Below are positions 197-40,063 of a stretch of 64,000 nucleotides of DNA, one piece after another. Source of the DNA: Aquabacterium sp. Lineage in GTDB: Bacteria; Pseudomonadota; Gammaproteobacteria; Burkholderiales; Burkholderiaceae_C. The position numbers and the translations under genes are program-made. The notes under the pieces were generated by a model. That model worked only from the letters and a program-made list of their open reading frames with translations. It was not told where the DNA came from and made no database searches. Positions within the stretch are counted from its first letter, which is position 1. The number at the start of each line of letters is the position of its first letter. Location: contig JAURXM010000031.1 in the NCBI GenBank assembly GCA_030654395.1, positions 124,001-188,000 of the forward strand. The letters are read 5' to 3'.

Positions 197-1078
197 ATGT
201 TGAAGTGTTTTGTAGATGATGCGCCATTTGAATTGCATGACCGGGCTGCGTTCAAGTTCAAGCACACATTGCAAAACCACCCCTCGCTCAAGCTTGAGAG
301 CCTGTGCAAATCGATTCCGGCATTGCCGGCAAGCAGTCTCTACTATTCCAAGGGGTCTTTGAAGACGAACGACGACTTCGACCGTGCGCCGAAAGATCAC
401 CCCAATGGGTTGTCGATTGAGGAGACGATTTCGAATATGAAAACGTCCGACTCCTACATCATGGTTCGTCGACCAGAGCTCAGCCCAGAGTTTGCTGAAT
501 TTCATCGCGAATTGATTGATGATTTGAAGGTGCTCACAAGCCGTCGAGGCTGGGGCACGCGGATTCTCAATCCGATGTTGTTCATGTTCATTTCTTCGCC
601 CAACAGCGTCACGCCGTTTCATATTGACCGCGCATCCAACTTCCTGATGCAGATCCAAGGTACCAAAACACTGACTGTGTTCAAGCCTTGGGACGAGCGT
701 GTGGTGACCCAGGAAGAAAGTGAACGTCGTTTGGCCTTTGCCGGAAATCCCGCGTGGAAGCCGGAGGCCGCACATTTGGGCGAACAGTTCCATTTTGTGC
801 CGGGTGATGCCTTGCATATTCCATTCTTGGCGGGGCATCATGTTCTCAATGGCCCAGAAGATGTGTCGGTTTCACTGTCTATCTTTTTCAACCATCGAGA
901 AACCGCTGATCGCATGCGTGCGTTGATGTTCAATCATGTCGCACGCGGGCCGCTAAGTCGGTTGGGGCTTCGTCCGTTCCCTGTTGCTCAGTCTGATTTT
1001 CGTGATCGTTTGAAGTCGCAAACCTACCGAGTTGGGCGCCGGCTCTTGCAGGGGGCGCAACCGGCCGAGCATCTGTAA
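197..1078 (+). CDS. Cupin-like / JmjC-type Fe(II)-2-oxoglutarate oxygenase
   Basis: The 293-residue protein has the double-stranded beta-helix pattern of the cupin-like (JmjC-related) oxygenases. The metal triad is visible: H142 and D144 in the segment TPFHIDRAS, and a distal H214 in AGHHVLN. A Lys in GTKTLTVF (about residue 157) fits the 2-oxoglutarate contact of the family. There is no signal peptide, so the protein should be cytoplasmic. Known relatives hydroxylate amino acid side chains or small molecules. The gene precedes the NRPS-PKS gene on the same strand with a 320-bp gap, so a role in tailoring or precursor hydroxylation of that product is an inference. Start: a GGAG sits 6 nt before the ATG. 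Fold confidence is good; the substrate is unknown. Confidence 0.75.
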   Translation: MLKCFVDDAPFELHDRAAFKFKHTLQNHPSLKLESLCKSIPALPASSLYYSKGSLKTNDDFDRAPKDHPNGLSIEETISNMKTSDSYIMVRRPELSPEFAEFHRELIDDLKVLTSRRGWGTRILNPMLFMFISSPNSVTPFHIDRASNFLMQIQGTKTLTVFKPWDERVVTQEESERRLAFAGNPAWKPEAAHLGEQFHFVPGDALHIPFLAGHHVLNGPEDVSVSLSIFFNHRETADRMRALMFNHVARGPLSRLGLRPFPVAQSDFRDRLKSQTYRVGRRLLQGAQPAEHL

Positions 1079-1398: not shown

Positions 1399-4300
1399 AT
1401 GTCCAACTCTGTTCCGCTCAGCAAAACGGCCCCGCATGCACTCCGTCATTGGTTGCGGCAGGCTGCCGAGCGTGTTCCTCAACATGCCGCTTTGGTTTCT
1501 CCAGAGGGCACCTTGAGTTATGCGCAGTTGTTGACGGTCGTACTGGATGTGGCCCAGTCGTTGAAGCAAAAAGGCTTGCAACCAGGCGACCGTATCGCGA
1601 TTGAGGCCACTCGGACACAAGAAACCATCATTCGGATACTGGCTGCGGTTGAGGCCGAGCTCGCTTATGTGCCGCTGGATCTGAGTTATCCAGCCGACCG
1701 TATCGCAGCGATGCTGGCGCAAGCGCAGGTTCGCTTGACCCTTGGCGATGACCAAACCGCCTCCCATCCTTTGGCTGAGGCAAGCAGCCTGTACGCCAGC
1801 GGCGAAGACTTGGCCTACGTGCTGTTCACCTCCGGCTCCACAGGGCAACCCAAAGGCGTGGCCATGGGGCAAAAGCCGCTGGTCAACCTGATCGACTGGC
1901 ACGCCCAGCACCCGCGTCTGGGCCACGCTTGCACCACGCTGCTATTCGCACCCTTGTCTTTTGACGTTCACTTCCAAGAGATCTTTTCAACCGTGGCCTG
2001 TCAAGGCACGATGGTGCTGATCCCAGAGGCGCACAGGCGTGACCCCAACTTGCTGCGGCAAGCTTTGGTCACCCACGGTGTCACCCGTTTGTATCTGCCG
2101 TATGTGGCCTTGCAAATGTTGGCCGAAGCCAACCGTGAAGCACTGAACACCCCCAGCCAAGGCCAATTGGTTTTGCATGACGTGATCAGTGCGGGTGAAC
2201 AATTGCAAATTACCCCCGTCATTCGAGATTTATTCAGCGGTCTGCCGCAGGCCGTTCTGCATAACCACTACGGCCCGACAGAAAGCCACGTCGTCACGGC
2301 CTTTGAATTGCCGAGCCAACAAAGCAATTGGCCCACCATCCCCCCCATCGGGCAGGCGCTGCCTTATGTCGAGATCGCGCTGCGTGATCCCGAAACCGGT
2401 CTGGTCACTCAAGCCGAGGGCGAATTGCTGTTGGGTGGTGATTGCCTGGCCCACGGTTACCTTGGCCAGGCGGAACTGACTGCAGACCGCTTTCGGGATG
2501 ACATCCCACAGTTGTCGGGACGTTGGTACACCACGGGTGATCTGGTTCGCCGCGATGCAAAGGGCGTTTTGACGTATCTGGGCCGAGCAGACCAACAACT
2601 GAAGGTCGATGGTTTCCGCATCGAGCCGGGTGAAATCGAAGTCGCCTTGATGGGGCACCCCCAAATTCAAGATGCGGTTGTGAGTGCCCCCGATTTGCCT
2701 AGTTTGGGCCGGCAATTGATCAGCCACCTGGTGTTGCGCAACCCCGGTGCTGAACTGAGCGCATTGATCACCGATTTGCGAAGCTACTTGCGCGCCCGGG
2801 TTCCCGAGTACATGGTGCCCACCCGCTTCATGGTCCTGGACCGCTTGCCGACCACGCCGAGCGGCAAGATTGACCGTCGCAACTTACCCGCCCCCATTGC
2901 TGCACCGTCATCCCAGCAGGGGTCGGTGACATCGGCCTTGGACGCGATTCGCCAAGCCTGGCAAGAGCTGCTGGGTCTGCCTCGTGTCAACGCCCAGGAC
3001 AATGTGTTTGACTTGGGCGCCAAATCCCTGCTGGTACTGCGCTTTGTGGCCCGCCTCAAAGAGTTGGGCCACAAGGCCACCGTGGGTCAGGTGTATGACC
3101 AACCCACAGCCAAAGGCTTGGCTGGTGCGTTGCAGGCCTCGCCTGCGGCCAAATCATCAGGCCGCGTCATCTCGCCCGGCAGCAGCGATGGCATCGCCAT
3201 TGTGGGCATGGCCGTGCGCACAGCGGGCGCCAAAACGCTGGATGCCTTTTGGGACAATTTGCTGGCCAACCGCGAAGGCATCCGCCACTTTGCACCGCAC
3301 GAGTTGGATACCAGCATTCCTGAGGGCATCCGCAACCGCCCGAACTTCGTGGCCGCCCGCGGTGTCCTGGAGGATGCTGATCGATTTGATGCGCCCTTCT
3401 TTGGTATCTCGGCACGCGAAGCCACCGTGCTGGACCCTCAGCAGCGACTCTTTTTGGAGCTGTGCTGGACCGCACTGGAACACGCCAGCATCGACCCAGC
3501 GCAACAACCTGACGACCGCTTTGGCGTGTATGCGGGCGAAGCCAACAACACCTACACCCCCGCATTGCGTCAGGAGCAGCCGGAGCTGGTTCAGCAATAC
3601 GGCGAATTCGGTGTCATGTTGGGCAGCGAGAAGGACTACATCGCCACCCGGGTCGCAAACCGCCTGAACCTCAAGGGCCCTGCGGTCAGCATTCACACAG
3701 CGTGTTCGACCTCGTTGGTCGCCATCACCCAAGCGTGGCACGCCTTGGCCAGCGGCCAATGTGATGTGGCCCTGGCTGGCGGCATGACGGTGGTCGTGCC
3801 ACAAGAAGCGGGCTACCTCCATGTTGAAGGCGGCATGGAATCAGCCGATGGGCACTGCCGTCCGTTTGACGAGAAAGCCTCGGGTACCCTGTTTTCCAGC
3901 GGCGGCGGCGTGGTGGTGCTCAAGCGCCTCTGTGATGCACAAGCTGCCGGCGACACCATTTATGGCGTCATCAAGGGCGTGGGCATCAACAACGACGGCA
4001 GCGACAAAGCCAGCTTCACCGCACCAAGCGTCACGGGGCAAGCTCAGGCCATTCGCATGGCACTGGACCATGCCGGCGTCAGTGCCCGCAGCATCGACTA
4101 TGTTGAAGCCCACGGCACGGGCACGTCTTTGGGCGACCCCATTGAAGTGGCCGCGCTGACTCAGGCCTGGGCCAGCGACACCCAGGATCGTCAGTTCAGC
4201 AAAATTGGATCGGTCAAAGGCCACCTGGGACACATTGTTGCCGCAGCGGGCGCGATTGGTTTGATCAAGACCACGCTGGCCTTGCACAGGCAACTGATCC

Positions 4301-7300
4301 CAGGCACGCTGCATTACCAGCGCCCCAACCTCAACATCGATTTTGGCGACACACCTTTCACGGTGGTCGGGCAAGCCACGCCCTGGCCCAAAGGTGATGC
4401 CGTCCGCCGCGCAGGGGTCAGCTCATTCGGCGTAGGGGGCACCAACGCCCACGTGATCGTGGAAGAGGCGCCAGCGCCCCTTCATACATCCCGCCCAACA
4501 CAGAGCAACGGCCCCGTTGTCTGGCCGCTGTCAGCCCGTTCTGAAGCCGCATTGGGCCAACGCATGGTTGACTTGGCTGACTTCGTTCAGGGCCAAGCCA
4601 CTGTTGACATACAGACCATTTTGGCGACGCTGACGCGCGGGCGGCAAGCCATGCGGCACCGTCATGTGATCGTCGCGCCCAATGTGCAAGAGGCCTGCGC
4701 GCTGTTGCGCCAAAAGGCCGCAGGACGAGTCGCTCTGAACGGCCCACGCGTGGTGTATCTGTTCCCAGGCCAAGGCTCACAGCACCCGGGTATGGCGCGC
4801 GGCTTGTACCAACAACTGCCCGCATTCAAAGACGCGTTGGACCGATGCATCGCCATCGCCAACCCCTTGCTGACACCTTGCGATCAAGGCCCTGCCGACT
4901 TGCTGGCATGGCTGACCCATGAAGACCCCAAGGACGCCGATATGGGCGCCCTGCTGGCTCAAACCCGTTATGCCCAGCCTGCCTTGTTCTGCATGTCCTA
5001 TGCGCTGACAGCTTGGTTGGACAGCTTGGGCATTGAGCCGCAAGCCATGATCGGGCACAGCATTGGCGAATATGCCGCTGCATGCTGGTCCGGCGTGATG
5101 AGCCTTGAGTCGGCCATCACCGCTGTCGTGGCACGTGGTCAGGCCATGTTTGAACAACGCCCGGGCGCCATGCTGGCCGTGCGCGCCAGTGCCGATGTGG
5201 TCCAGGCGGCCATGCCCGCAGGGGTCGAGATCGCCGCGCAAAATGCGCCAGCGCTCACCGTCGTCGCGGGCGATTTTGACGCCATCGATGCGTTTGCAGC
5301 CAAGTTGGAAGCGCAAGACATCGGGACCACCAAACTCAAGGTGTCCCACGCCTTTCACAGTGCCAGCATGGACGCAGCCTTGCCCCGTGTGGCAGACGCG
5401 CTGCGGGCGGCGCACCTGCAAGCGCCTCAGATGCCGCTTTACTCGTGCGTGACGGGTGAGTTGCTGCAAGCGCAGCAAGCCACAGACCCGCAATACTGGG
5501 CACAGCAAGTTCGCGCCAGTGTGCAGTTTCGTCGTGCCGTTGAAGCCGAACTGGCGCACGGCGATACCGTCTTTATCGAAGTCGGCCCGAGCCAGGCCTT
5601 GACAGCCTTGCTGCGCCAATACCGTACCAGCCAAGGCAAGCCAGCCAACGTGGTGCCACTCTTGGGTGCAGCCTCACAAGCCGGGCAACCCACTTTGACC
5701 GCCCTACAAGGTTTGGGTCAGCTGTGGGCCCTGGGCGTGAACGTGGCCTGGCCCGTCCCCGCGCAAGCACGACGCCAGACTTTGCCGACCTACCCATTCA
5801 TGGGTGAGCGCCATTGGTTCAAACGCAAATCTGCGCCAGCCTTGAACGTTGAGCCCACTCAAATGGAATTCACTTTGCCTCAGACCGCACAGATCATGAG
5901 CCGCATTCCTCGCTTGCAAGAAGAAGTCATCCGCATCATCTGTGATGTATCCGGGCTGACGCCAGACGCCATTCATGGCGATGCGATCTTTGTTGACATG
6001 GGACTGGACTCCTTGTCCATGACCCAAGCCACACTGGAGTTCGAACGCGTATTTGGCTTGAAACTGCGCTTCCGCCGCCTGATGGAAGACCTCCATAGTC
6101 TGTCCAAAGTGGTGGCTTTCCTCGATCAGCAATTGCCTGCTGATCAGTTTGCGCCGCCCCCTGTTGCGGTACCTGTGCTCCCTCCGCAAGGCGGACTAGC
6201 TGTTCAGCAATTGATCCATCAGCAAATGCAATTGATGGCCCAACAGCTGGCCGTGCTGTCTGGACAAGCGGTGCAACCCTTTGCTCCTTTCTCGCCTTTG
6301 CCCGTTGCAAGTGAAAGCGACGAAGCGGTACAACCGGGCATCAAAGCCTTGGTCGAAAAGCCCTTCGGCGCTTCGGCTCGCATCGTCCTGGAAAAGCAGC
6401 AGACCTTCACGCCTCAGCAGCAAGTCTGGATCGATGACTTCATCCAGCGCTACAACACCCGCACCGGTGGTTCCAAATCATTCAGCCAAGCCAATCGCAA
6501 GGTGATGTCTGACCCTCGCGTGGTCACGGGCTTCAACCCTTTGTGGAAAGATTTGGTCTACCCCATCGTGGCAAACAAGTCCAAGGGCGCCCGTATTTGG
6601 GATGTGGACGGCAACGAGTACATCGACCTGCTGTCATGCTTTGGCGCCAACTTGCTGGGCTACCAGCCCGACTACATCCTCAAGGCCATGCATGCGCAGC
6701 TTGAGGAAGGCATCGAGATTGGGCCTCAACACCCACTGACCGCTGAAGTGGCCAAGCTGATGTCCGAGTTGACGGGCATGGAGCGCGTTGCCTTTTGCAA
6801 CACCGGCTCTGAAGCTGTGATGGGTGCGATGCGGATTGCCCGCACCGTCACCGGTCGCAAGAAGATTGCCATTTTCAGTAACTCTTATCACGGCATTTTT
6901 GATGAAGTGATCGTGCGCGGCACCAAGCAACTGCGCTCGTTGTCGGCGGCGCCTGGCATCTTGGCCAACGCGGTTGAAAACATCATCGTGCTGGACTGGG
7001 CTACGGACGAGACCTTGGCTTACTTGCGTGAGCACGGCCATGAATTGGCGGCGATCATGACCGAGCCGATTCAGAACAAGTACCCCACGGTCCAACCGCG
7101 AGAGTTCGTCCGATCACTGCGTCAGATTGCCGATGCATCGGGTTGTGCGCTGATCTTTGACGAAGTGGTCACGGGCTTCCGCTTGGCCCCGGCTGGTGCA
7201 CAAGCGTTCTACGAGGTTCGCTCGGACATGTCTACCTATGGCAAGGTGATCGGCGGCGGCTTGCCCTTTGCCGCGATTGCCGGCGCCAGCCATTGGCTGG

Positions 7301-10300
7301 ACGCCCTGGATGGTGGCCATTGGCAATACGGGGATGACTCCTACCCTGAAGCTGGTGTGACCTACTTTGCTGGCACCTTCGTGCGTCACCCACTGGCCTT
7401 GGCCGCCGCCAAAGCTGCGCTGCAGCACATCAAAGACAGCGGTCCCGCCTTGTACGAGACCATGAACGGGCGCACCCAGCGCATGGTTGAACGGCTCAAT
7501 GCCGAGTTTGCCAAGCGCAAAGCGCCGGTCAAAGCGGTTCATTGCGCATCGCTGTGGCGTCTGGCATGGGACGAGAACCAAAAAGGCATCAGCCTGTTTT
7601 ACTACTTGGCTCGTTTCCACGGCCTGCACTTGTATGAGCAGTTTGGTCACTTCGTGACCGAGGCCATGGGCGAGGCAGAAACCGCTCGCATTGGTGACGT
7701 GTTCATCCAGTGTCTGGATGAGTTGATGGCTTTGGGCTTTATCACGCCCCAAGGCAGCGGTGCCCCATTGACCCCAGGGCAAACAGAGCGTTGGTTGGCG
7801 GCAGCGTTTGACGAAGGCGCGCGCCGGGCTCTGAACGAATCTTTTTGCGTTGGCCTGTCTGGTAACGTCGATGTGAGCGCACTCAAAGGCGCCGTTCAAG
7901 ATGTGCTGGCTCGACACGACGCATTCAAAATCGCGTTCGATCAAGATGAGCCTCGGCAATGGCTGCAAGCAAAAGGCCCCATGCCGATCCGAGAGGTAGA
8001 TTTGCGTGATCAGTCTGATTCGGATGCAGCGCTGGATGCGTTTTGTACGTCGGCCAGCGAGAAGGACTTTCCACTAGATCAAGCGCCCCTGGCCGCCGCC
8101 AGCGTGCTGCATCTGGCAGATGGCCGCAAAGTGGTTCACATCGTCGCCAGTCATCTGATTTTTGACGGATGGGCATCCAGCGTTTTTAACGCCGAGTTGG
8201 CCGCTGCGTACAAAGCTCGCACGACCGGCACGCCGCTTTCACTCAAGCCAGCAGAGTCGCCCCTCGTTTTTGGTGAGCAAGAGCAAGCCCGCATGACGGG
8301 CACGCAAGGCCAGGAAGCGATGCAGTACTGGCGCGAGGTGCTCCAAAACCCACCGCCATTGCTCTCGCTGGGGGATCGAACGCCCCCCTCGCCTCGACGC
8401 TATGAGGCCGACACCGTTCGCGCTCAGTTCAATGCCCCACTGGCTCAGTCGTTGAAGGACGCTGCTCGCCAGCGTGGCGCCACACTGTTCCAACTGTTGC
8501 TCACCGCTGTCATCGCAGCGCTGCGCAACCACAGCGGTCAGGACGAGTTTGTCATCAGCATCCCCTATGCCAGCCAAAGCCTGCAGCGCAGAGGCCCCCT
8601 GATGGCCGATGGCGTGTTGGATTTGCCTTTGCGTTTGCAATGTCAAGCCACTGACACCGGCACCCAACTGTTGAGCCGTGTACGCGATCAATTGATGGAC
8701 GCCCTTGAATACCCTGTGGCCACACAAGGTACGGTGGCCAGAGCTTTGGGCTTGCCCAGTTCTGGCGACCGCGCCCCGTTCACGGGCGTGTTCTTCAACC
8801 TCAATCCTCGCATCGACCTGTCCGGCTTTGCGCCCTTGACGGCGTCCATGCACGAAGGCCGCAAACGCGGCACGCTCAGCGAGCTTTTCTTCAACTTCTA
8901 CGAAGGCACCGAGGCGCTGACGCTGGATCTGCACTACAGCACCGAATTTTTCAGTCCTGAACGTGCGCAATCACTGGTCCAAGCCTTAAAGAGCACCTGC
9001 GAACAACTGGCGCAGTCGATTGACACCCCTGTGTCGCAACTCGTTGTAACGCAGCCAGTCAAAACCAACACACAACCCTTGGTCGTCGACCCACAGCTTG
9101 CGGCGTGGAATCAGACACAAGCACCGTTTGATCCTCATGCTCGTATTGAGCAATGGGTGACGCAACAAGCTCAGCGCACACCTGATGCGGTAGCTGTTCT
9201 AGCCCGAGGCGTTCGCCTGAGCTACCAAGAGCTGAGCCACCGAATCAACCGTTTTGCCAACCTGCTGATTGCCCGAGGCGTGAGCGAAGGCGACCGAATT
9301 GGGCTTTGCTTGAGCCGTGGCCCCGACATGATCCCGGCCTTGCTGGGCGTGTTGAAGACCGGGGCTGCTTATGTGCCGCTGGACCCAGGCTTTCCAACGG
9401 ATCGCCTGCACTACATGGCCCAAGATGCGGGCGTCAAATGGGTCATCACCGAAGCGGCCCATGCAGACCGGTCCGGTGTGTCTCGTCAACAGCAAATTCG
9501 GGTTGACGACGATGCTGGCATGATCAATGGTGCCCCGCATACTGACCTTAAGCCCTTGAAAGCTTTCAGTGCCGATGCCACGGCCTACGTCATCTACACA
9601 TCCGGCTCGACAGGGCAACCCAAGGGCGTCGTGCTGCCGCAGGCCGCTGTGTGCAACTTCCTGTCGAGCATGAAACGTCAGCCTGGCATCACAGCCAGCG
9701 ACCGTTTTCTGGCCGTGACCACGCTGTCTTTTGACATCGCTGTTCTGGAATTGTTCTTACCCCTGATCACCGGGGCCCGCGTTGTGCTGGCACAGCGTGA
9801 AGACGCCATGGACGGAGAATCCTTGTCGAAGTTGATTGCCGACGAGGGCATCACCTTCATGCAAGCCACGCCCACCACCTGGCACTTGCTGCTTGAAGCC
9901 TCATGGAAGGCACCTGTGGGCTTCAAGGCCCTGTGCGGTGGCGAGCCACTGCCACCGTCTCTGGCCGAGCCCTTGTTGGCGCAGGGCATGACGCTGTGGA
10001 ACATGTATGGCCCAACCGAAACCACCGTGTGGTCTACGGTTGCAGCCATCACGGATGCCAAACAAAAAATCACCATCGGCAAGCCCATCGACAACACCCA
10101 AGTGTGGATCCTGGATGAACAAATGCATCCTTGCCCGGTTGGGACAGAAGGCGAAATTTGTATCGGTGGCGAAGGCGTTGCAACTGGTTATTTCAAACGA
10201 CCAGAGCTAACCGCAGATCGCTTTGTGGCCGATCCATTTTCGTCACAACCTGGGGCCCGCATTTACCGAACAGGCGACTTGGGCCGTTGGCGGCCTGATG

Positions 10301-13300
10301 GCAACTTGGAGCACTTGGGCCGACTGGACTTCCAAGTCAAGATTCGAGGCTACCGCATTGAGCTTGGTGAGATCGAAGCCCGTTTGGCCGCTCAGCCTGG
10401 CGTTGCACGTACCGTTGTGGTCGCGCGAGAGGTCACGCCCAACGACACGCAGTTGATCGGTTATGTGACGCCACAGCCCGGCTGCGCCGTCGATACCGCC
10501 GTGCTGAGGCAAGCGCTGCGCACCGATCTGCCTGACTACATGGTGCCCCAGCACATCCTGCTGATTGCCAGCATGCCCCTGCTGCCCAACGGCAAAATTG
10601 ATCGCAAGTCTTTGCCGGTGCCATCCATCTCAGTGAGTGCGCTTGCTGCCGCTCCATCCGACAACGCATCCATTCAACAAGGCATTGCCCATGCCATGGC
10701 CGATGTGCTGGGCAAATCACACGTTGGTGTCACAGACAACTTTTTTGAACTCGGCGGACACTCGTTGCTGGCGGCCCGCTTGGCAGCCAAACTGATTGAC
10801 GTGGTCGGTTTCCGGCCAGCCTTGCGCATCATTTTTGAATCGCCGACACCTGCCGCGTTGGAACAAGCTTTGGCTCAAAAGCCCGCAGCTGGCGCCCAAC
10901 TCAGCACGACCGTGATTCCAGCCCGAGCCGATCAAAGCACCGCCCCCTTGTCGCAAATGCAGTTGCGCCTGTGGTTCCTGGAAACCTTGTCTCCAGGCAC
11001 GGTGGCACACAACACACCATCGGGTCACTTGCTGCATGGCCCGCTGGATGTGCCAGCCTTCCAGCAAGCCATGCAATTGTTGGTGAATCGACAAAGCGTA
11101 TTGCGCACCGTCATGGAGCGCACACCGGAAGGCGCCATTCAACGTGTCTTGCCCACGCTGAACTACGCACTGCCGGTGACAGACCTGTCTGCGCTGACCC
11201 CAGCAGAACAACAAGTGGCCTTGAACACAGCTGTCAAGGCCTTGGTCGAAACGCCTTACAACCTGGAGCAAGGTCCGCTGTTCAGCGCTCATTTGTGGCG
11301 ACTCTCGGCCACCGAACACGCGTTCTTCTTCCAGACGCATCACCTGATCTGGGACGGCTGGTCCTTCGATATTTTCTATCAAGATATCTCTGAGTTGTAC
11401 GAAGCCTGCCGCACCGGTCGCCAAGCACAACTGCCAGAGATCTCGGTGAGCTATGGTGACTTTGCCGTCTGGCATCAGCAATGGCTGAGCGGGCCTGAAC
11501 TGGCGCGTCAAACCCAGTACTGGCGTGACAAGCTCAGCCCCTTGCCGGACCCCATTGAGTTACCCTTGGATCGAGCCCGACCTGCGGTCATGTCAGGCAG
11601 AGGCGATTGCATCCAGTTCAATCTGGGTAGCAAGGTCACACGTGCCTTGCGGGAACAAGCGCAATGCAGTGGCCGCACGCTGTATGTGACGCTGTTGTCT
11701 GCCTACGCCCTGGTTTTGCATCAAATCAGTCAGCAAAAGGATTTTGTCGTTGGCACGCCAGTTCGTGGCCGCGAACAAGCTGGACTGGAACCCTTGATGG
11801 GGTTCTTCGTCAATATGCTGCCCATGCGCATGCAGATCGAGCCAGCGCAACGCATGAATGCGTGGATGGATCAGGTTCACCGCATGGTTGTCGAATCATT
11901 TTCCTACCCGGAAGTGCCTTTTGAGCATCTGGTCAGGGAGCTGAAGGTGCCGCGCGACAGCAGCTACTCACCGATCTATCAAGTCTCGTTCTCGTACCAG
12001 GATGCACGAGATCGCCAAACACATTGGGGTAACGTCGAACACGACCGAATGGCCACGCCGATTTTGGGCGCTGCCCAAGACATCGGCTTGTGGTGCGTTG
12101 AAACAGGTGACGAAATTGAATTTGTCTTCACCTACAACACCGATGTGTTCGATGCCAGCACCGTCGCCCGCCTGGGCACACGGATTGAATCGGTGCTGCA
12201 CCAACTGGAGGCCGAGCCCGATGGACCGTTGCATCACTACAGCGTGCAACCTGCCAATGAGCGCGATCAAATCGCTGCCTGGAACCAAACCACTCGCTCC
12301 TACAACCAGCACATCACCGTCCATCAGCTGATTGAAGAACAAGCTGAGCGCACTCCACAAGCTACAGCCATCGTGCAACCAGGCTGGGGGCAATTGAGCT
12401 ATCAGGAACTGAACGGCCGAGCCAACCGACTGGCCCGTGTCCTGCGCCATCGTAGTGTGGGGCGTGGCGCGCTCGTGGGGCTGTGCGTAGAACGCGGAGT
12501 GGACATGTTGACCGCGCAACTGGCAGTCCTCAAGGCCGGTGCAGCCTATGTGCCGCTGGACCCGTCGTATCCATCTGATCGCTTGGTTTACATGAGCGCT
12601 GACGCGCAACTGTCATTGCTGATATCCGAACAAGGCCTGACTGATGTCCTGCCGTGGGCACGAGAAAAACTGATCTTGCTGGACTCGGACGCAGCCGAGA
12701 TCACCGCGCAAAGTGACACGCCTTTGGTGCCGCACCCAAGCTTGGATGCACACGCCGAAGATACGGCTTATGTCATTTACACATCGGGCTCCACCGGTCG
12801 GCCAAAGGGCGTCATGGTGCCTCACCGTGCTGCGGTCAATTTTCTGAGCAGCATGGCCCATGAGCCCGGTCTGCAAAGCAGTGACCGACTCCTGGCGGTG
12901 ACCACGTTGAGCTTTGATATCGCTGTGCTTGAACTGTTCTTGCCGCTGAGCCTGGGTGCCCAGGTTGTGTTGGTCAGCCGTGAGCAAGCTCAGGATGGAG
13001 CGTCCTTGCAAACGCTGATCGCCAGCCACAACATCACAGTCATGCAAGCCACACCGGCCAGTTGGCACCTGCTGCTGGACGCAGGATGGCCAGGCAAGAC
13101 AGGCTTCAAAGCACTGATTGGCGGCGAAAGCCTGTCCCCCGCTTTGGCTGAGCAACTGCTGACCCGATGCAGTGAACTGTGGAACATGTATGGCCCCACA
13201 GAAACCACCGTGTGGTCGACCTGCGCACGCATTGTCAACACGCAAGAACTGATCACCATTGGTGGCCCCATCGCCAACACCCAGATCCACGTGCTGGACG

Positions 13301-14154
13301 AACATGCGAAGCTCTGCCCTATTGGCGTAGCTGGTGAGATTTTCATTGGTGGCGATGGTGTCACCCAAGGCTACTTGAACCGACCAGAGCTGACGGCTGA
13401 ACGTTTTGTGGTCGATCCCTTTGGTTCTTTGCCAGGTGCTCGTCTCTACCGCACTGGCGACCGGGGCCGCTGGCGCCCAGATGGCACCATTGAACATATG
13501 GGCCGACTGGACTGCCAGATCAAAGTCCGCGGGCACCGCATTGAGCTGGGTGAAATCGAGTCGATATTGGCCACGCATCCAGAGGTCAACCGATCCGTCG
13601 TGATCGTGCGTGAAGACAGCCCTGGTGACGCCAGGTTGGTGGCTTACATCGTGGTACAACGGGACATGCTTGCTATCAGCACCTTGCGTGATCACCTCCG
13701 GGTATCCTTGCCTGATTACATGGTGCCGCAACACTTCGAGCAATTGGCGTTCATCCCGCTTTTACCCAACGGGAAGGTCAACCGCCACGCCTTGCCTGTA
13801 CCCAAGGCATTGACCATTGCGCCTGCCGCTTCAACAAGCCTGTCTCAAACAGAAGAAGAAAAAGTGATTGCACAAGTCTGGCAAGAACTGCTGGGCGTGG
13901 ATCAGATCATGGGCTCCGACAACTTCTTTGATTTAGGCGGTCACTCCCTGCTGGCCATGCGCGCTGTGACGGAGATCAACCGCCGCTTGCAAACCCAGTT
14001 GACGGTACGACAAATGATTTATGGCTCTCTCGCACAATTGGCGCAAGCCGAAAAAGTGTCACCGGTGGCGCCATCAAACAGCAACGTGCCCCCTCAAACC
14101 GCAGCCAAAGAAACAGGCTGGATCCGAAAAATGGTCAGCAAACTGCTCACTTGA
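1399..14154 (+). CDS. Hybrid NRPS-PKS, A-PCP-KS-AT-ACP-AMT-C-A-PCP-C-A-PCP
   Basis: The protein has about 4251 residues from the ATG. Order: A1 (about 10-510, SGSTGQPKG near 146); PCP1 (S543); KS (about 597-1020; C769, H905, H945); AT (about 1118-1400; S1221 in GHSIGE, and HAFHS, which indicates malonyl-CoA); ACP (S1538); class III PLP aminotransferase (about 1716-2114, K1949); C1 (SHLIFDG, catalytic H2252); A2 (about 2574-3077); PCP2 (S3122); C2 (HHLIWDG, 3314-3315); A3 (about 3631-4135); PCP3 (S4183). The chain ends in a short amphipathic tail. There is no KR, DH, methyltransferase or thioesterase. The KS-AT-ACP-AMT block resembles those of mycosubtilin and microcystin synthetases, which make beta-amino acids. 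Hand-read codes are A1 DVQYIAHVVK (unassigned) and A2 and A3 DILQLGMVWK (glycine-like). The expected product is a beta-aminoacyl-Gly-Gly chain. Release probably needs a trans enzyme encoded downstream. Confidence 0.93.
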   Translation: MSNSVPLSKTAPHALRHWLRQAAERVPQHAALVSPEGTLSYAQLLTVVLDVAQSLKQKGLQPGDRIAIEATRTQETIIRILAAVEAELAYVPLDLSYPADRIAAMLAQAQVRLTLGDDQTASHPLAEASSLYASGEDLAYVLFTSGSTGQPKGVAMGQKPLVNLIDWHAQHPRLGHACTTLLFAPLSFDVHFQEIFSTVACQGTMVLIPEAHRRDPNLLRQALVTHGVTRLYLPYVALQMLAEANREALNTPSQGQLVLHDVISAGEQLQITPVIRDLFSGLPQAVLHNHYGPTESHVVTAFELPSQQSNWPTIPPIGQALPYVEIALRDPETGLVTQAEGELLLGGDCLAHGYLGQAELTADRFRDDIPQLSGRWYTTGDLVRRDAKGVLTYLGRADQQLKVDGFRIEPGEIEVALMGHPQIQDAVVSAPDLPSLGRQLISHLVLRNPGAELSALITDLRSYLRARVPEYMVPTRFMVLDRLPTTPSGKIDRRNLPAPIAAPSSQQGSVTSALDAIRQAWQELLGLPRVNAQDNVFDLGAKSLLVLRFVARLKELGHKATVGQVYDQPTAKGLAGALQASPAAKSSGRVISPGSSDGIAIVGMAVRTAGAKTLDAFWDNLLANREGIRHFAPHELDTSIPEGIRNRPNFVAARGVLEDADRFDAPFFGISAREATVLDPQQRLFLELCWTALEHASIDPAQQPDDRFGVYAGEANNTYTPALRQEQPELVQQYGEFGVMLGSEKDYIATRVANRLNLKGPAVSIHTACSTSLVAITQAWHALASGQCDVALAGGMTVVVPQEAGYLHVEGGMESADGHCRPFDEKASGTLFSSGGGVVVLKRLCDAQAAGDTIYGVIKGVGINNDGSDKASFTAPSVTGQAQAIRMALDHAGVSARSIDYVEAHGTGTSLGDPIEVAALTQAWASDTQDRQFSKIGSVKGHLGHIVAAAGAIGLIKTTLALHRQLIPGTLHYQRPNLNIDFGDTPFTVVGQATPWPKGDAVRRAGVSSFGVGGTNAHVIVEEAPAPLHTSRPTQSNGPVVWPLSARSEAALGQRMVDLADFVQGQATVDIQTILATLTRGRQAMRHRHVIVAPNVQEACALLRQKAAGRVALNGPRVVYLFPGQGSQHPGMARGLYQQLPAFKDALDRCIAIANPLLTPCDQGPADLLAWLTHEDPKDADMGALLAQTRYAQPALFCMSYALTAWLDSLGIEPQAMIGHSIGEYAAACWSGVMSLESAITAVVARGQAMFEQRPGAMLAVRASADVVQAAMPAGVEIAAQNAPALTVVAGDFDAIDAFAAKLEAQDIGTTKLKVSHAFHSASMDAALPRVADALRAAHLQAPQMPLYSCVTGELLQAQQATDPQYWAQQVRASVQFRRAVEAELAHGDTVFIEVGPSQALTALLRQYRTSQGKPANVVPLLGAASQAGQPTLTALQGLGQLWALGVNVAWPVPAQARRQTLPTYPFMGERHWFKRKSAPALNVEPTQMEFTLPQTAQIMSRIPRLQEEVIRIICDVSGLTPDAIHGDAIFVDMGLDSLSMTQATLEFERVFGLKLRFRRLMEDLHSLSKVVAFLDQQLPADQFAPPPVAVPVLPPQGGLAVQQLIHQQMQLMAQQLAVLSGQAVQPFAPFSPLPVASESDEAVQPGIKALVEKPFGASARIVLEKQQTFTPQQQVWIDDFIQRYNTRTGGSKSFSQANRKVMSDPRVVTGFNPLWKDLVYPIVANKSKGARIWDVDGNEYIDLLSCFGANLLGYQPDYILKAMHAQLEEGIEIGPQHPLTAEVAKLMSELTGMERVAFCNTGSEAVMGAMRIARTVTGRKKIAIFSNSYHGIFDEVIVRGTKQLRSLSAAPGILANAVENIIVLDWATDETLAYLREHGHELAAIMTEPIQNKYPTVQPREFVRSLRQIADASGCALIFDEVVTGFRLAPAGAQAFYEVRSDMSTYGKVIGGGLPFAAIAGASHWLDALDGGHWQYGDDSYPEAGVTYFAGTFVRHPLALAAAKAALQHIKDSGPALYETMNGRTQRMVERLNAEFAKRKAPVKAVHCASLWRLAWDENQKGISLFYYLARFHGLHLYEQFGHFVTEAMGEAETARIGDVFIQCLDELMALGFITPQGSGAPLTPGQTERWLAAAFDEGARRALNESFCVGLSGNVDVSALKGAVQDVLARHDAFKIAFDQDEPRQWLQAKGPMPIREVDLRDQSDSDAALDAFCTSASEKDFPLDQAPLAAASVLHLADGRKVVHIVASHLIFDGWASSVFNAELAAAYKARTTGTPLSLKPAESPLVFGEQEQARMTGTQGQEAMQYWREVLQNPPPLLSLGDRTPPSPRRYEADTVRAQFNAPLAQSLKDAARQRGATLFQLLLTAVIAALRNHSGQDEFVISIPYASQSLQRRGPLMADGVLDLPLRLQCQATDTGTQLLSRVRDQLMDALEYPVATQGTVARALGLPSSGDRAPFTGVFFNLNPRIDLSGFAPLTASMHEGRKRGTLSELFFNFYEGTEALTLDLHYSTEFFSPERAQSLVQALKSTCEQLAQSIDTPVSQLVVTQPVKTNTQPLVVDPQLAAWNQTQAPFDPHARIEQWVTQQAQRTPDAVAVLARGVRLSYQELSHRINRFANLLIARGVSEGDRIGLCLSRGPDMIPALLGVLKTGAAYVPLDPGFPTDRLHYMAQDAGVKWVITEAAHADRSGVSRQQQIRVDDDAGMINGAPHTDLKPLKAFSADATAYVIYTSGSTGQPKGVVLPQAAVCNFLSSMKRQPGITASDRFLAVTTLSFDIAVLELFLPLITGARVVLAQREDAMDGESLSKLIADEGITFMQATPTTWHLLLEASWKAPVGFKALCGGEPLPPSLAEPLLAQGMTLWNMYGPTETTVWSTVAAITDAKQKITIGKPIDNTQVWILDEQMHPCPVGTEGEICIGGEGVATGYFKRPELTADRFVADPFSSQPGARIYRTGDLGRWRPDGNLEHLGRLDFQVKIRGYRIELGEIEARLAAQPGVARTVVVAREVTPNDTQLIGYVTPQPGCAVDTAVLRQALRTDLPDYMVPQHILLIASMPLLPNGKIDRKSLPVPSISVSALAAAPSDNASIQQGIAHAMADVLGKSHVGVTDNFFELGGHSLLAARLAAKLIDVVGFRPALRIIFESPTPAALEQALAQKPAAGAQLSTTVIPARADQSTAPLSQMQLRLWFLETLSPGTVAHNTPSGHLLHGPLDVPAFQQAMQLLVNRQSVLRTVMERTPEGAIQRVLPTLNYALPVTDLSALTPAEQQVALNTAVKALVETPYNLEQGPLFSAHLWRLSATEHAFFFQTHHLIWDGWSFDIFYQDISELYEACRTGRQAQLPEISVSYGDFAVWHQQWLSGPELARQTQYWRDKLSPLPDPIELPLDRARPAVMSGRGDCIQFNLGSKVTRALREQAQCSGRTLYVTLLSAYALVLHQISQQKDFVVGTPVRGREQAGLEPLMGFFVNMLPMRMQIEPAQRMNAWMDQVHRMVVESFSYPEVPFEHLVRELKVPRDSSYSPIYQVSFSYQDARDRQTHWGNVEHDRMATPILGAAQDIGLWCVETGDEIEFVFTYNTDVFDASTVARLGTRIESVLHQLEAEPDGPLHHYSVQPANERDQIAAWNQTTRSYNQHITVHQLIEEQAERTPQATAIVQPGWGQLSYQELNGRANRLARVLRHRSVGRGALVGLCVERGVDMLTAQLAVLKAGAAYVPLDPSYPSDRLVYMSADAQLSLLISEQGLTDVLPWAREKLILLDSDAAEITAQSDTPLVPHPSLDAHAEDTAYVIYTSGSTGRPKGVMVPHRAAVNFLSSMAHEPGLQSSDRLLAVTTLSFDIAVLELFLPLSLGAQVVLVSREQAQDGASLQTLIASHNITVMQATPASWHLLLDAGWPGKTGFKALIGGESLSPALAEQLLTRCSELWNMYGPTETTVWSTCARIVNTQELITIGGPIANTQIHVLDEHAKLCPIGVAGEIFIGGDGVTQGYLNRPELTAERFVVDPFGSLPGARLYRTGDRGRWRPDGTIEHMGRLDCQIKVRGHRIELGEIESILATHPEVNRSVVIVREDSPGDARLVAYIVVQRDMLAISTLRDHLRVSLPDYMVPQHFEQLAFIPLLPNGKVNRHALPVPKALTIAPAASTSLSQTEEEKVIAQVWQELLGVDQIMGSDNFFDLGGHSLLAMRAVTEINRRLQTQLTVRQMIYGSLAQLAQAEKVSPVAPSNSNVPPQTAAKETGWIRKMVSKLLT

Positions 14155-14161
14155 TGTCAAC

Positions 14162-14935
14162 ATGATTCCGTTTCGTTTCGGCATTCCCAACCACCGCTTG
14201 TTTGCAGCCTTTTATCAGCCTCATCAAAGCCAGACGCCATGTCAGGCTGTGCTGCTGTGCAATCCATTCGGGCAAGAATCGGTTCGGGTGCACAGGTTTT
14301 ATAAAGTACTGGCAGATCATTTGTCGCGTGCGGGCATGGCTGTCATGCGCTTTGACTACTTTGGCACAGGCGATTCCGATGGCGACGACCTCGATGGCCA
14401 TCTCGACGTCTGGCGCAGCGACATTGTGCTGGCACATGAGGAATTGCAGCGGCGCAGCGCTTGCGCCAACATCTCATGGATTGGCGCCCGACTTGGTGGT
14501 TCACTGGCCATGCAAGCAGCTACACAGACGCAACTGGAGCGCCTGATTTTGTGGGAACCGATCCTAGATGGCACCCACTATCTAACAAAGCTGGCGCAAG
14601 ACCACGTCGCCAGCATCACCCGTGTGGGGCAATCCAAGATCAAAGTGGCAGACAAGCAGCCACGAGGTGAAGCGCTAGGATTTGGCATGAGCGAGCGTCT
14701 GATAGCCCAAATAGCCCAAATTCGTCCGGACTTGCTTTTGCAGCCCACACACGCCAAATCAACTGTTGTGTTGAGCCCAGACAGTCGGTCGACCAAGGAG
14801 CATGTGGGCTCGGTCATGCATCGAACCTTAGCCGTCCCTTTTGACTGGACGTCCGAAGAGGCCCTCAATACATCGCTGGTGCCAACTGCCGCATTGAAAG
14901 CCATCACAAGCCTGTTCGAGGGTGGCTCTGCATGA
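14162..14935 (+). CDS. Alpha/beta-hydrolase lacking a Ser nucleophile (exosortase-hydrolase-like)
   Basis: The 257-residue protein starts 7 bp after the NRPS-PKS stop, so the genes should be co-transcribed. It has the alpha/beta-hydrolase core: an oxyanion-region segment (LLCNPFGQE), a second strand RFDYFGTGDSDG, and an elbow ISWIGARLGGSLA. At the elbow the usual G-x-S-x-G serine is replaced by Arg (G-A-R-L-G). It most resembles the hydrolases found beside exosortase systems, which also carry G-x-R-x-G. Such a protein may be non-catalytic or act as an acyl-binding partner of the next gene product. Release or proofreading of the peptidyl chain is an inference from position. The last bases overlap the next gene by 4 nt (ATGA). 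Confidence 0.75.
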   Translation: MIPFRFGIPNHRLFAAFYQPHQSQTPCQAVLLCNPFGQESVRVHRFYKVLADHLSRAGMAVMRFDYFGTGDSDGDDLDGHLDVWRSDIVLAHEELQRRSACANISWIGARLGGSLAMQAATQTQLERLILWEPILDGTHYLTKLAQDHVASITRVGQSKIKVADKQPRGEALGFGMSERLIAQIAQIRPDLLLQPTHAKSTVVLSPDSRSTKEHVGSVMHRTLAVPFDWTSEEALNTSLVPTAALKAITSLFEGGSA

Positions 14936-15765
14936 ACGAATTGATCGTCACCATGGGCGCCGATCAGCGTTTGGTCGGCACGCTGTGTATGCCCACCGAG
15001 GTCGCCCCCAAATCCATTGCCTTTGTCATGCTCAATGCAGGCGTGGTGTCTCGCATCGGGCCACATCGCTTCAACGTCAAATTGTCTCGGCATCTGGCAA
15101 CGCAGGGCTTTTCCAGTTTGCGCTTTGACTTGTCAGGACAAGGTGACAGTGCCCCTCCATCCGCATTGGCCGCAGCGTCACAAGAAGAACAAGTGATGCT
15201 CGATTTGCGTGATGCACTGGATCACATTGCCCAGACGACAGGCATTGAGCGCTTTGTCATCGCTGGCATTTGCTCGGGTGCGGTGGCGGCGTACTTCTAC
15301 GCCCAACGCGATGAGCGTGTCATCGGCACGTGGATGCTGGACGGCTACACTTTCCACACTTGGCAGTCCCACTGCATTCGGTATGCAGGCAAAGTCAGTC
15401 GCCTGCTGACACGGGATTGGAGCAGCACCCTCGCCAAAATCAAGGCGCTGCTGTCGTCGGACTCACAACAAGTTGCGGATGAGGTGGATTACGGCTCAAA
15501 CCGTCAGCCCAGTAAAATCGAGTACATCACAGCCATGCAAAGTATGGCCCATCGGGGTATGCGTAGCTTCATGATGTTTTCGTCTGACATCCACTGGTAC
15601 TACAACTACCAAAATCAATTCGTTGATGCCTTCAGAGGGCAGGACTTTGCAAGCCACGTCACCACGAAGTACCTACCCACTACTGATCACACCCTGACCC
15701 AGGTGAAGGATCAAACCTATGTCATTGAATGCATCGGAACCTGGGCATGCACGCTCGCCGACTGA
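14932..15765 (+). CDS. Alpha/beta-hydrolase with Cys-type nucleophile elbow
   Basis: The 277-residue protein overlaps the upstream hydrolase gene by 4 nt, which suggests translational coupling and a possible heterodimer. It shows an alpha/beta-hydrolase fold with RFDLSGQGDS and an elbow FVIAGICSGAVAA in which Cys sits at the nucleophile position of G-x-Nu-x-G. A likely catalytic His lies in TTDHTL near the C-terminus. Cys nucleophiles occur in dienelactone-hydrolase-like enzymes and some thioesterases. Because the assembly line lacks a thioesterase, this is the best candidate for chain release or macrocyclisation, though that is inferred only from context. It also resembles exosortase-system hydrolase 1. 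No signal peptide is visible. Confidence 0.78.
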   Translation: MNELIVTMGADQRLVGTLCMPTEVAPKSIAFVMLNAGVVSRIGPHRFNVKLSRHLATQGFSSLRFDLSGQGDSAPPSALAAASQEEQVMLDLRDALDHIAQTTGIERFVIAGICSGAVAAYFYAQRDERVIGTWMLDGYTFHTWQSHCIRYAGKVSRLLTRDWSSTLAKIKALLSSDSQQVADEVDYGSNRQPSKIEYITAMQSMAHRGMRSFMMFSSDIHWYYNYQNQFVDAFRGQDFASHVTTKYLPTTDHTLTQVKDQTYVIECIGTWACTLAD

Positions 15766-16844
15766 TCATGGCCTTGAGCATCATCATGCTGATCACCGCT
15801 TGTGCGGTATGGGCACTGTGGGCCACATCGCAAGGCACACCTCTGACTTTGCCGAAAGCTGAAACGCCACCACAAAGCATTCCTTTGGCTATTTTGGGCG
15901 ACTCGGACAGCCACTCCTACCAAGATACCGTGTCCTTCCCCGAAGGGGGGGCAGACCGGGGTGGGCGTTACCGAGCCCAAACCTGGCAGTGGGGAGAACT
16001 GCTCAGCCGCCTACGAGGCGATCAACTGGACCTGGGCCTCTGGCGCACATGGGGCACCCGAAGGGTGATCGCCAAAGCACAAGATGCGCTGGGATGGCAA
16101 GGACGCTTCCCGCGCAAAATGGACTACCGACATAACATGGCTGTATCCGGGGCGGTTTGCCGCGACTTGAGCGAAGGTCGGATGGTCAAACAACTGATTG
16201 ACCTGATGAACGAGAACCCCCAGAGATGGCAGAAGGGCATTGTCGTGATCCGCATCGGGGTCAATGATGTTGGCACGCGGCAAGCCCTGACAGCCTGGGC
16301 TCAAAATGGACGGGATCCCAAACTGATGGGACGAGTCCAGGAATGCATTGATCAGTACAAGCACGCCGTCACATCCATCTGGCAAGCTCATCCGCAGGTT
16401 CGTTTTGTGCTGGTCGGTTTGTTTGACAACAGCAACTGGGCACCCTTGATTGACAACTGGCAAGATCCGGTCGACTTGCAAAACATCGCAACAGGTTTGA
16501 ATGCCTTTAATGCTCCGCTCAAATCATTTGCAGAGCAGGATAAACGGCTGAGCTTCTTTGATGATCAGGCTTGGTTCCGACAACACTGGGGGGGGCGCCA
16601 TTCTGATGGTTCACCCCACTTTGGATTGGCCCACATAGATGGTCGTTGGCCAACGCACAATACATCTGGCGATAGCCCCAATCATGCCAACGTCCAAGAC
16701 GGTCATGCTGGCACGATCTGGAACTTACTGTGGACACAAGCCTTGGTCAGGCACATCAACACGGCATTCGCAACGGGTGTGTCAGACATCCGTGATCAAG
16801 ACTTGGCTCACTACCTGAGTTCAAATGGCATCAGCAGTTGGTGA
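15747..16844 (+). CDS. Membrane-anchored or exported SGNH/GDSL hydrolase
   Basis: This SGNH-family protein of about 365 residues has block I GDSDS (nucleophile Ser near residue 53), block II Gly in AVSGAVCRD, block III GVND and block V DGHAG (catalytic Asp/His near the C-terminus). A positively charged start (HARRL) and a hydrophobic stretch ending in CAVWALWATS form a signal anchor or signal peptide, so the catalytic domain should face the periplasm. The gene overlaps the upstream hydrolase gene by 19 bp; an ATG at 15729 is an alternative start. SGNH enzymes deacylate or transacylate sugars, lipids and peptides. As the last gene of the biosynthetic operon it may act on the exported product or provide self-protection, which is inference. 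Confidence 0.78.
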   Translation: MHARRLIMALSIIMLITACAVWALWATSQGTPLTLPKAETPPQSIPLAILGDSDSHSYQDTVSFPEGGADRGGRYRAQTWQWGELLSRLRGDQLDLGLWRTWGTRRVIAKAQDALGWQGRFPRKMDYRHNMAVSGAVCRDLSEGRMVKQLIDLMNENPQRWQKGIVVIRIGVNDVGTRQALTAWAQNGRDPKLMGRVQECIDQYKHAVTSIWQAHPQVRFVLVGLFDNSNWAPLIDNWQDPVDLQNIATGLNAFNAPLKSFAEQDKRLSFFDDQAWFRQHWGGRHSDGSPHFGLAHIDGRWPTHNTSGDSPNHANVQDGHAGTIWNLLWTQALVRHINTAFATGVSDIRDQDLAHYLSSNGISSW

Positions 16845-30052: not shown

Positions 30053-30080
30053 CCCGTGGGTCATGAGGAATAATCCAGCC

Positions 30081-31538: not shown

Positions 31539-31539
31539 C

Positions 31540-32883
31540 GTGACTCAGCCTCACAACCTGACCCACCGCGCCTACATGGAGGCCTTGGCCGATGCCGTGC
31601 TGGGCGCCCTGCCCGGTGTGCACGCCAGCCTGTATCTGGCAGCCGAGTCCAGTGACTTCATCCGCTTCAACCATGCGCAGGTCAGGCAGGCCACACATGT
31701 GACCCAAGCTTACGTCACGCTGAGTTTGGCGCAGGGGCAGCGTGCCATCCAGTCGACACGCACGGTCAGTGGTGATTTGGCCATCGATGTGCCCGCCCTG
31801 TTGGCCGATCAGCTTCAGCTGGCAAGTGACTTGGCTTGCTTGCCGCCCGACCCCTATCTGCTCTTGCCGGACGAGGTCAAGCACACCACGCGCGAAGACC
31901 AAGGTGCACTACCCCAAGCAAGCGAGGTCATCGATGCGGTGCACAGGCACGCCAGTGGCTTGGACTTCGTGGGCTTTTACGCGGGTGGCCCCGTTGTGCG
32001 GGCTTATGCAGACAGCCGTGGGCAGCGCAATTGGCACCGTGTGGACAGCTTTAACTTGGAGTGGTGCCTTTATCACGCCACCGACAAAGCCGTGAAGACT
32101 GGCTACAGCGGCACGCATTGGTCAGAAGAGGCGTTTGCCAAGCGCATGCAACAAGCGGCCCAACAGGTTCAGTTGCTTGCTCGCCCACCCCAAACCTTGT
32201 CACCGGGACGCTACAGGGCTTACTTCGAACCCACCGCTGTTGGTGAACTACTGGCCACCTTGGCGTGGGGCGGCTTCAGCCGTAAATTGCAAGAAACGGG
32301 TACCTCGCCCTTGATGCGTTTGGTGCGCGGTGAGGCCGCTTTGCACGCCAGCGTACAGCTATCAGAACACACAGGCCGCAGCAGTGCCCCTGCCTTCACG
32401 CCCAGTGGCTTCACGCGACCTGAGCGGGTCGCCTTGGTCACCAATGGGCTGCACGCGGGCAGCCTGTGCTCACCCCGATCGGCCCGTGAATACGGCGTGT
32501 TGCCCAATGGCGCCACGGCAGGAGAGGCGCCCGAGGCCTTGTATCTGGCACCCGGCCAACTGCCTGAGGCCGATGCGCTCAAGGCGCTCGGCACAGGCCT
32601 GTATCTCAGCAACCTGCACTACCTGAACTACAGCGACCGTCAGACCTGTCGTTTGACGGGCATGACCCGGTTTGCCTGCTTTTGGGTTGAGGACGGCCAA
32701 CTCAAAGCCCCCCTCAACGTGATGCGCTTCGATGATGACCTGCTGGCCTTGTTTGGCCCCCGCCTGCTGGCCTTGACCGATCAGACGCAATGGCTGCCTG
32801 ACACCAGCACCTATGGCGAGCGCCAGCTCAGCTCAATCACCACGCCCGGCATGTTGGTTGACGGATTTGAGTTGACGCTGTGA
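31540..32883 (+). CDS. TldE/PmbA-like partner subunit
   Basis: The 447-residue protein starts with GTG directly after the tldD-like stop. It has the PmbA/TldE layout (N-terminal domain with TASLYLAAESSDFIRFNHAQVRQ-like strand, C-terminal beta domain with NLHYLNYSDRQTCRLTG) and no HExxxH. In known complexes this subunit shapes the substrate tunnel but does not bind zinc. Tight coupling (1 bp) supports a fixed stoichiometry. Substrates are not evident, and no small precursor peptide gene was seen beside it. Confidence 0.82.
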   Translation: MTQPHNLTHRAYMEALADAVLGALPGVHASLYLAAESSDFIRFNHAQVRQATHVTQAYVTLSLAQGQRAIQSTRTVSGDLAIDVPALLADQLQLASDLACLPPDPYLLLPDEVKHTTREDQGALPQASEVIDAVHRHASGLDFVGFYAGGPVVRAYADSRGQRNWHRVDSFNLEWCLYHATDKAVKTGYSGTHWSEEAFAKRMQQAAQQVQLLARPPQTLSPGRYRAYFEPTAVGELLATLAWGGFSRKLQETGTSPLMRLVRGEAALHASVQLSEHTGRSSAPAFTPSGFTRPERVALVTNGLHAGSLCSPRSAREYGVLPNGATAGEAPEALYLAPGQLPEADALKALGTGLYLSNLHYLNYSDRQTCRLTGMTRFACFWVEDGQLKAPLNVMRFDDDLLALFGPRLLALTDQTQWLPDTSTYGERQLSSITTPGMLVDGFELTL

Positions 32884-40060: not shown

Positions 40061-40063
40061 TTT

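Follow-up and report, generated by a model that had tools for sequence, protein, structure and literature searches.

An NRPS-PKS synthetase of Aquabacterium sp. predicted to start from proline and make a β,γ-diaminoacyl-glycyl-glycine, and its adjacent hydrolase pair

The DNA stretch analyzed here (the window, 64,000 nucleotides) is positions 124001-188000 of contig C25 in a draft Aquabacterium sp. genome of 4.37 Mb, with 95.62% completeness and 8.27% contamination. A single NRPS-PKS synthetase gene lies near its start, together with genes for a probable oxygenase, two α/β hydrolases and an SGNH/GDSL hydrolase (Table 1). The synthetase frame runs from its ATG to the stop codon through 4251 residues with zero internal stops; a TTG at 1285 is in the same frame. 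The positions of the motifs along the chain and the Pfam matches give the domain order A-PCP-KS-AT-ACP-AMT-C-A-PCP-C-A-PCP. The intact frame, Pfam and the motifs thus agree with the original prediction, made from the sequence before this analysis, of a one-gene hybrid of 4251 codons with this domain order.

Table 1. Genes and synthetase domains at the locus, with coordinates in the window
Feature	Position	Strand	Basis
Cupin_8/JmjC protein, FIH-like Fe(II)/2-oxoglutarate oxygenase, probable hydroxylase	197..1078	+	PF13621, PF08007, FIH match
NRPS-PKS synthetase, 4251 aa	1399..14154	+	uninterrupted frame, Pfam domains, motif check
A1, proline-type starter adenylation domain, DVQYIAHVV	1441..2898	+	code alignment, published code, PDB match
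PCP1 (DLGAKSL)	2920..3138	+	Pfam, motif
KS with C-terminal extension	3187..4668	+	Pfam, motifs
AT, malonyl-type (GHSIGE, HAFH)	4753..5667	+	Pfam, motifs
ACP (DMGLDSL), approximate limits	5896..6108	+	PF00550 (four stretches in gene), motif at 5995
AMT, class III aminotransferase domain, approximate limits	6496..7713	+	PF00202; MycA AMT 6kfm; tree
C1 condensation domain	7765..9078	+	Pfam, motif
A2, glycine-type, DILQLGMVW	9151..10638	+	code alignment
PCP2	10681..10893	+	Pfam, motif
C2 condensation domain	10933..12273	+	Pfam, motif
A3, glycine-type, DILQLGMVW	12331..13803	+	code alignment, motifs
PCP3, terminal carrier	13864..14046	+	Pfam, motif
hyd2, α/β hydrolase without elbow nucleophile (GARLGG), distant TIGR03101 hydrolase 2 type	14162..14935	+	profile match, alignment
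hyd1, α/β hydrolase, Cys elbow (GICSG, C114; D252/H253), distant TIGR03100 hydrolase 1 type	14932..15765	+	profile match, alignment
SGNH/GDSL hydrolase, start approximate	15729..16844	+	PF13472; 13 aligned rows; hydrophobic N-terminus by eye

Pfam finds three AMP-binding, four PP-binding and two Condensation matches in the synthetase, and one each of ketoacyl-synt, Acyl_transf_1 and Aminotran_3. A motif check located ACSTS, EAHGTGT and KGHLGH in the KS, GHSIGE and HAFH in the AT, YGKVIGGG in the AMT, and the core motifs of A1, A2 and A3. We take HAFH to denote a malonyl-type AT, as had been predicted. The serine-bearing motifs of the four carriers are DLGAKSL, DMGLDSL, ELGGHSL and DLGGHSL. The catalytic residues expected in each domain are in place. 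The C motifs are HLIFDGW and HHLIWDGW, the former with Ser where the usual pair of His residues begins. KS, AT, ACP and Aminotran_3 with their catalytic residues are present in a single chain, the composition of a β-aminating NRPS-PKS module. Identity is 58% between A2 and A3 and 23% between C1 and C2. None of the 12 Pfam families in the synthetase at E ≤ 0.001 is a KR, DH, TE or luciferase-type (MOX) family. The reported lack of KR, DH and TE therefore holds inside the gene, where a search for a hidden thioesterase domain at this threshold found none; the missing in-line TE is, however, offset by the two α/β hydrolases directly downstream.

The substrate codes were read by alignment, with the GKxxR motif supplying the tenth letter, K. 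Such codes can be misleading, and one code can be common to analogues. The A1 code, DVQYIAHVV, is identical to that of the LpmD Pro domain (DVQYIAHVVK) and differs by one letter from that of the PstD Pro domain (DVQYVAHVVK; PMC9113097). Pro domains have been grouped by Val236 and Gln239, and DILQLGMIWK is the code given for MOX-bearing Gly domains (PMC12283262). A2 and A3 share DILQLGMVW, one letter off the latter, in a synthetase with no MOX-type match. Against the PDB, the top chain matching A1 in a single stretch is tyrocidine synthase 2 (residues 469-960, 256 bits), and higher-scoring chains match in two or three stretches. The matched tyrocidine synthase module is presumably proline-activating. 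The starter code, left unassigned in the original prediction, is thus proline-type, and the placing of both C-terminal A domains near the glycine consensus is upheld.

We put the probability at roughly 60% that the synthetase loads L-proline, extends it with malonate, transaminates the β position and adds two glycines, with release by the adjacent hydrolases and tailoring by the oxygenase and the SGNH hydrolase. A1 would load L-proline, and one malonyl unit would extend it to 3-oxo-3-(pyrrolidin-2-yl)propanoyl-ACP. The AMT would turn the β-ketone into an amine. Because an AMT takes the place of a KR, the expected unit is 3-amino-3-(pyrrolidin-2-yl)propanoyl-ACP, a β,γ-diamino acid. The two C-A-PCP modules would each append glycine. 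The Cys-type hydrolase hyd1 would then take the terminal thioester with the assistance of its nucleophile-less partner hyd2, and the chain would leave by hydrolysis, cyclisation or transfer. The FIH-like oxygenase would hydroxylate the molecule, and the SGNH hydrolase would modify or transfer an acyl group. Of the β-aminoacyl-Gly-Gly peptide originally predicted, the AMT and the two glycine-type A domains remain, but the proline start makes the first unit a β,γ-diamino acid. These starter and glycine assignments give exact masses to seek: the computed mass of the core acid, C11H20N4O4, is 272.1485 ([M+H]+ 273.1557), with 255.1452 for the cyclised and 289.1506 for the hydroxylated form. No product for this assembly line, or for any member of the lineage described below, was found in a literature search that covered few subscription papers.

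Close relatives of the line are found within the genus. An AMT search of 100 genomes, 42 of them from the genus including its own, returned AMTs with 74-100% identity in 19 of the 42 genus genomes, its own again included (L007-L025). The next best (L026, 50% identity) is from outside the genus. A line unique to one strain is thereby ruled out, and the single-gene line is not the one-off it had been thought to be. We compared 17 of the 18 relatives (up to 20 kb each) with the window, giving 18 loci; the relative in G008, on a 3.7 kb contig, was omitted. The starter code can be read in every locus except L114, which is cut off, and is DVQ[YF][IV]AHVV in all 17, the window among them. What follows the AMT is more varied: among the 18 loci the next A domain is Gly-type in 12, DVWHxSL[VI]D, presumably a Ser-type code, in four, and DMPQMGLVY in two. 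The proline-type start and the AMT are therefore constant in these loci where readable, but Gly-Gly is not. Five relatives (L115, L116, L119, L122 and L123) have an extra C-PCP without an A domain. A longer relative of the line (L027) is present in Aquabacterium commune DSM 11901, and since this strain is deposited, the proposal is testable there.

The terminal module differs in its A domain, whose core motif is present in eight of 17 readable genus synthetases (window included) and absent from nine (L124 is cut off). The adenylation domain thus seems to be in the course of being lost from the terminal module, which may be dispensable, and the family as a whole cannot be characterised by Gly-Gly. 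The last A domain was seen to be degraded, truncated or absent, with C and PCP kept, in L108-L114, L118 and L120. One explanation for the missing motifs is that a single residue is added after the diamino acid and the terminal C-A-PCP relays the chain or is skipped. The family product would then be a diamino-acyl-glycine, and Gly-Gly either an exception or an artefact of reading the line module by module. It is also consistent with the gap between C and PCP in L114, L125 and L045, which at 23-80 residues is too short for an A domain. However, A3 of the window has all core motifs and the same glycine code as A2, and the eight synthetases that kept the motif include this one. We consider addition of a single residue here unlikely and prefer the two-glycine product for the window line.

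To place the line in a wider class, we scanned named genomes and classified the best 80 loci listed, so that the counts are not natural frequencies. By profile annotation, 34 have A-T-KS-AT-AMT without a preceding C domain, 11 have C-A-T-KS-AT-AMT, nine appear to be FAAL-started, as assigned from domain order and code, and 26 are other or cut off. Among the 34 amino-acid-started loci, 10 starters are Pro-type (DVQ..[AS][HQ]V) and nine Val-type (DA[FL]W[LI]GGTF). The first downstream A domain reads DILQ[LI]G..W in 21 of them, has another code in 10, and is unreadable or absent in three. The loci span Pseudomonadota, Bacteroidota, Cyanobacteriota, Acidobacteriota, Bdellovibrionota and others. 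KS-AT-AMT lines with an amino-acid start, in many cases with glycine next, thus occur in several phyla.

A maximum-likelihood tree was built from 87 AMT domains, comprising the best 80 loci, the window and six of the 20 loci in the set that includes the 17 genus relatives. One branch (bootstrap 99, SH-aLRT 96) sets off a 53-row group that holds the window and 40 of 41 amino-acid-started AMTs. L100, a long-branch amino-acid-started row, is located outside it. The group also contains four of 11 C-A-T-KS rows and nine of 26 others, several of them on cut-off contigs. None of the nine FAAL-type rows and none of the five Bacillus, Paenibacillus and Viridibacillus rows falls within it. The amino-acid-started label changes nine times on the tree, so the lineage is rich in amino-acid starts but not pure. 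The window line has the order A-PCP-KS-AT-ACP-AMT, and its AMT lies within the supported group. Together with the proline code of A1, this branch places the line outside the iturin/mycosubtilin or FAAL-started AMT lineage.

Our analysis also revealed a conserved hydrolase pair directly downstream of the synthetase. The ATG of hyd2 lies 7 bases past the synthetase stop, its end overlaps the start of hyd1, and the SGNH frame comes next. In an alignment of the hydrolases and cupin proteins with 27 rows, representing 24 distinct loci (L027/L119, L029/L116 and L030/L113 are from the same organisms), Cys114, Asp252 and His253 of hyd1 are kept in every row. The nucleophile place of hyd2 is occupied by Arg or Gly in 24 of 27 rows; the other three are poorly aligned there. 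It is therefore unlikely that hyd2 is the release catalyst. The existence of the pair argues against the view that release is impossible without a TE. Judged from these sequences, the chain is probably released in trans by the pair, with hyd1 as the probable chain-release or transfer enzyme. A Cys nucleophile next to a carrier-bound chain suggests transfer or cyclisation over plain hydrolysis.

The closest known counterparts of the pair are hydrolases 1 and 2 of exosortase-A systems (TIGR03100 and TIGR03101), which are also adjacent, with a Cys elbow in one and Arg in the other. The XrtA-type copies in this genome read GLCDG and WGLRAG. The same Cys and Arg in these copies indicate that the logic of the pair is common to both systems. 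However, the cluster copies score below both family cut-offs (hyd2 103.9 bits against 202.75 for TIGR03101, hyd1 79.0 against 168.45 for TIGR03100), and we reject membership of the cluster in an exosortase-A system. The hydrolases of the genome that exceed the TIGR cut-offs are located on C61, where a ligase cut by the contig end scores 552.5 bits against a cut-off of 592.35. Four exosortase matches in the genome are over cut-off, one of them on C25 about 44 kb upstream of the window.

The kinship with exosortase-A hydrolases raises the question of whether the product is a free metabolite. Alternatively, the Cys hydrolase could transfer the chain, as a peptidyl or aminoacyl group, to a glycan on the surface or to some other cell-envelope acceptor. 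Several relatives are consistent with this. In Luteibacter (L045), a gene upstream encodes an XrtA-type glycosyltransferase, EpsB_2, which exceeds the TIGR03013 cut-off with 561 bits, and the glycosyltransferase and O-ligase matches downstream stay under their cut-offs. L028 carries UDP-sugar dehydrogenase and epimerase genes by eye. A search with six polysaccharide-related query proteins from L045, L028 and L031 (E ≤ 1e-8) found EpsB_2 homologues in L031, L041 and L051 (3e-198 to 5e-154), and weaker ones in L126, L056 and L070. All six of these loci are on the amino-acid-rich side of the AMT tree. A polysaccharide-type gene is present in five of the seven non-genus loci that have the hydrolase pair (L028, L031, L041, L051 and L126, but not L089 or L127), and a fused hyd2-hyd1 gene elsewhere in this genome (L146) adjoins such genes by eye. 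Against this, the six queries had no match in the 17 genus loci, the 64 kb window or the 20 kb upstream (E ≤ 1e-8), and the cluster hydrolases are far under the TIGR03100 and TIGR03101 cut-offs. A direct link to polysaccharide genes is thus rejected for the window. Attachment to the envelope is a doubtful reading here; for the family the envelope link is an unproven lead, and it does not count as evidence at the locus in the window itself. A broader and somewhat less doubtful, still tentative reading is that the gene belongs to a cross-phylum class with proline, valine and other starters that makes β,γ-diamino acids, mostly followed by glycine, and that in Pseudomonadota the chain may be passed by the pair of Cys hydrolase and pseudohydrolase to one particular acceptor, which might be located on the cell surface.

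Among lines with known products, the layout had been likened to mycosubtilin- and microcystin-type synthetases. The likeness consists of a class III AMT embedded on a PKS module and followed by C-A-PCP, and the AMT of MycA is the best solved match of the AMT (6kfm, E 1.4e-111). It does not extend to the tree, in which the AMT groups with amino-acid-started lines, apart from Bacillus/Paenibacillus and the nine FAAL-type rows; the tree had no named microcystin AMT. Mycosubtilin/iturin and microcystin-type lines have lipid or aromatic starters, whereas the starter code here is that of an amino acid.

A second comparison is with detoxin/rimosamide-type (DRL) synthetases. The Det unit of miramide is proline whose carboxyl is extended by malonate and whose keto group is reduced (PMC9503745). 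RmoI, MirF/MirE and PipC join proline and one malonate on an NRPS-PKS, a step that is predicted here from the A1 code and the AT motif. Tailoring in detoxin-type pathways comprises hydroxylation of the proline ring by a dioxygenase and its acetylation by a complex that includes an SGNH-family protein (PMC12828459). DRL clusters encode a dioxygenase and an SGNH-family (GSCFA) protein (PMC9503745, PMC12828459), and the oxygenase and SGNH hydrolase in the window may be a parallel to them. In DRL synthetases a KR gives an alcohol, the AT acts in trans, a Val/Ile module comes first and a TE is built into the line. In contrast, the window line has an AMT that would give an amine, a cis AT, proline as the predicted true starter and glycine as the predicted next residue, and Pfam finds neither KR nor in-line TE in it. 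By analogy, its logic would be that of detoxinine, but with the ketoreductase replaced by an aminotransferase.

The starting domain order of the window line has been recorded previously. Table 2 of a 2013 survey lists A-CP-KS-AT-CP-PLP1 proteins from Pedobacter heparinus (C6XWU5) and Thiorhodococcus drewsii (G2E5C9), with antiSMASH guesses such as Nrp-Mal-Gly-Pk (PMC3870968). Product, starter assignment and β,γ-diamino unit are all absent from that section of the survey. A 2026 preprint describes three ways of starting cyanobacterial β-amino polyketide units, from an alpha-keto acid, an aromatic acid or a fatty acid (PMC13252402). If the starter retains its alpha-amine up to the transamination, the outcome would be one more kind of unit, with a vicinal diamine, and this group could bind metals or targets.

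The FIH-like oxygenase and the SGNH hydrolase are, by analogy, likely tailoring enzymes. The best solved match of the cupin protein is FIH (E 1.5e-5), and its HxD...H iron site (H142, D144, H214) is present in all 25 rows that have letters there, of 27. A profile built from the family's own cupins found a cupin gene near nine of the 34 amino-acid-started loci and none of the 46 others among the best 80 (Fisher p 2e-4). Without L027-L030 the count is five of 30 (p 0.008); both values treat related loci as independent, and the flanks covered are limited. The SGNH protein had no PDB match at E ≤ 0.1. The oxygenase gene upstream, and the fact that analogues can share a code, would also fit a starter that takes a proline analogue (pipecolate, hydroxyproline, azetidine carboxylate or a dehydro form), but this is improbable given that the A1 code exactly matches a published proline code and that no proline-oxidising acyl-CoA-dehydrogenase-like protein was noticed by eye among the neighbours read. 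Formation of a pyrrole, as in prodigiosin-type pathways, was dropped on the latter ground.

The synthetase is likely activated from another locus. No PPTase or exporter was seen among the window proteins at 197-20330, which were read or searched. Frames resembling an Sfp-type PPTase are located nearby in L108, L112, L114 and L117 by eye. Three PF01648 matches in the genome are over cut-off. One of them, C101:265534-265833, has as neighbours another hyd1-hyd2 pair and genes that, by eye, encode RND efflux proteins. It is 42-48% identical to frames in L108-L114 and is the likely activator of the synthetase. The second pair is found at 10456-12827 of L144 (G000:C101:255001-275000), with the PPTase and the efflux genes and no synthetase between them. 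Its hyd2 is 53% identical to that of the window, and the site may be a relict of the cluster or a helper locus. The fused hyd2-hyd1 gene, at 8992-10836 of L146 (G000:C23:108001-126000), encodes a protein of 614 aa that likewise has Arg and Cys at its elbows. The gene is directly upstream of polysaccharide-export-like genes, and a VgrG-like gene is further upstream, by eye.

Other condensation-domain genes in the genome are a 1173 aa frame with C and A domains (G000:C37:529246-532077) and a fragment on C46, a 3.2 kb contig. Two further sets of genes were noted by eye in the window. At 30063-32883 (+), two adjacent frames resemble proteases of the TldD/TldE (PmbA) pair. At 37752-42865 (-), a gene for a VgrG-like protein of 933 aa, one for a peptidase-like protein and one for a small lipoprotein-like protein resemble a type VI secretion effector set.
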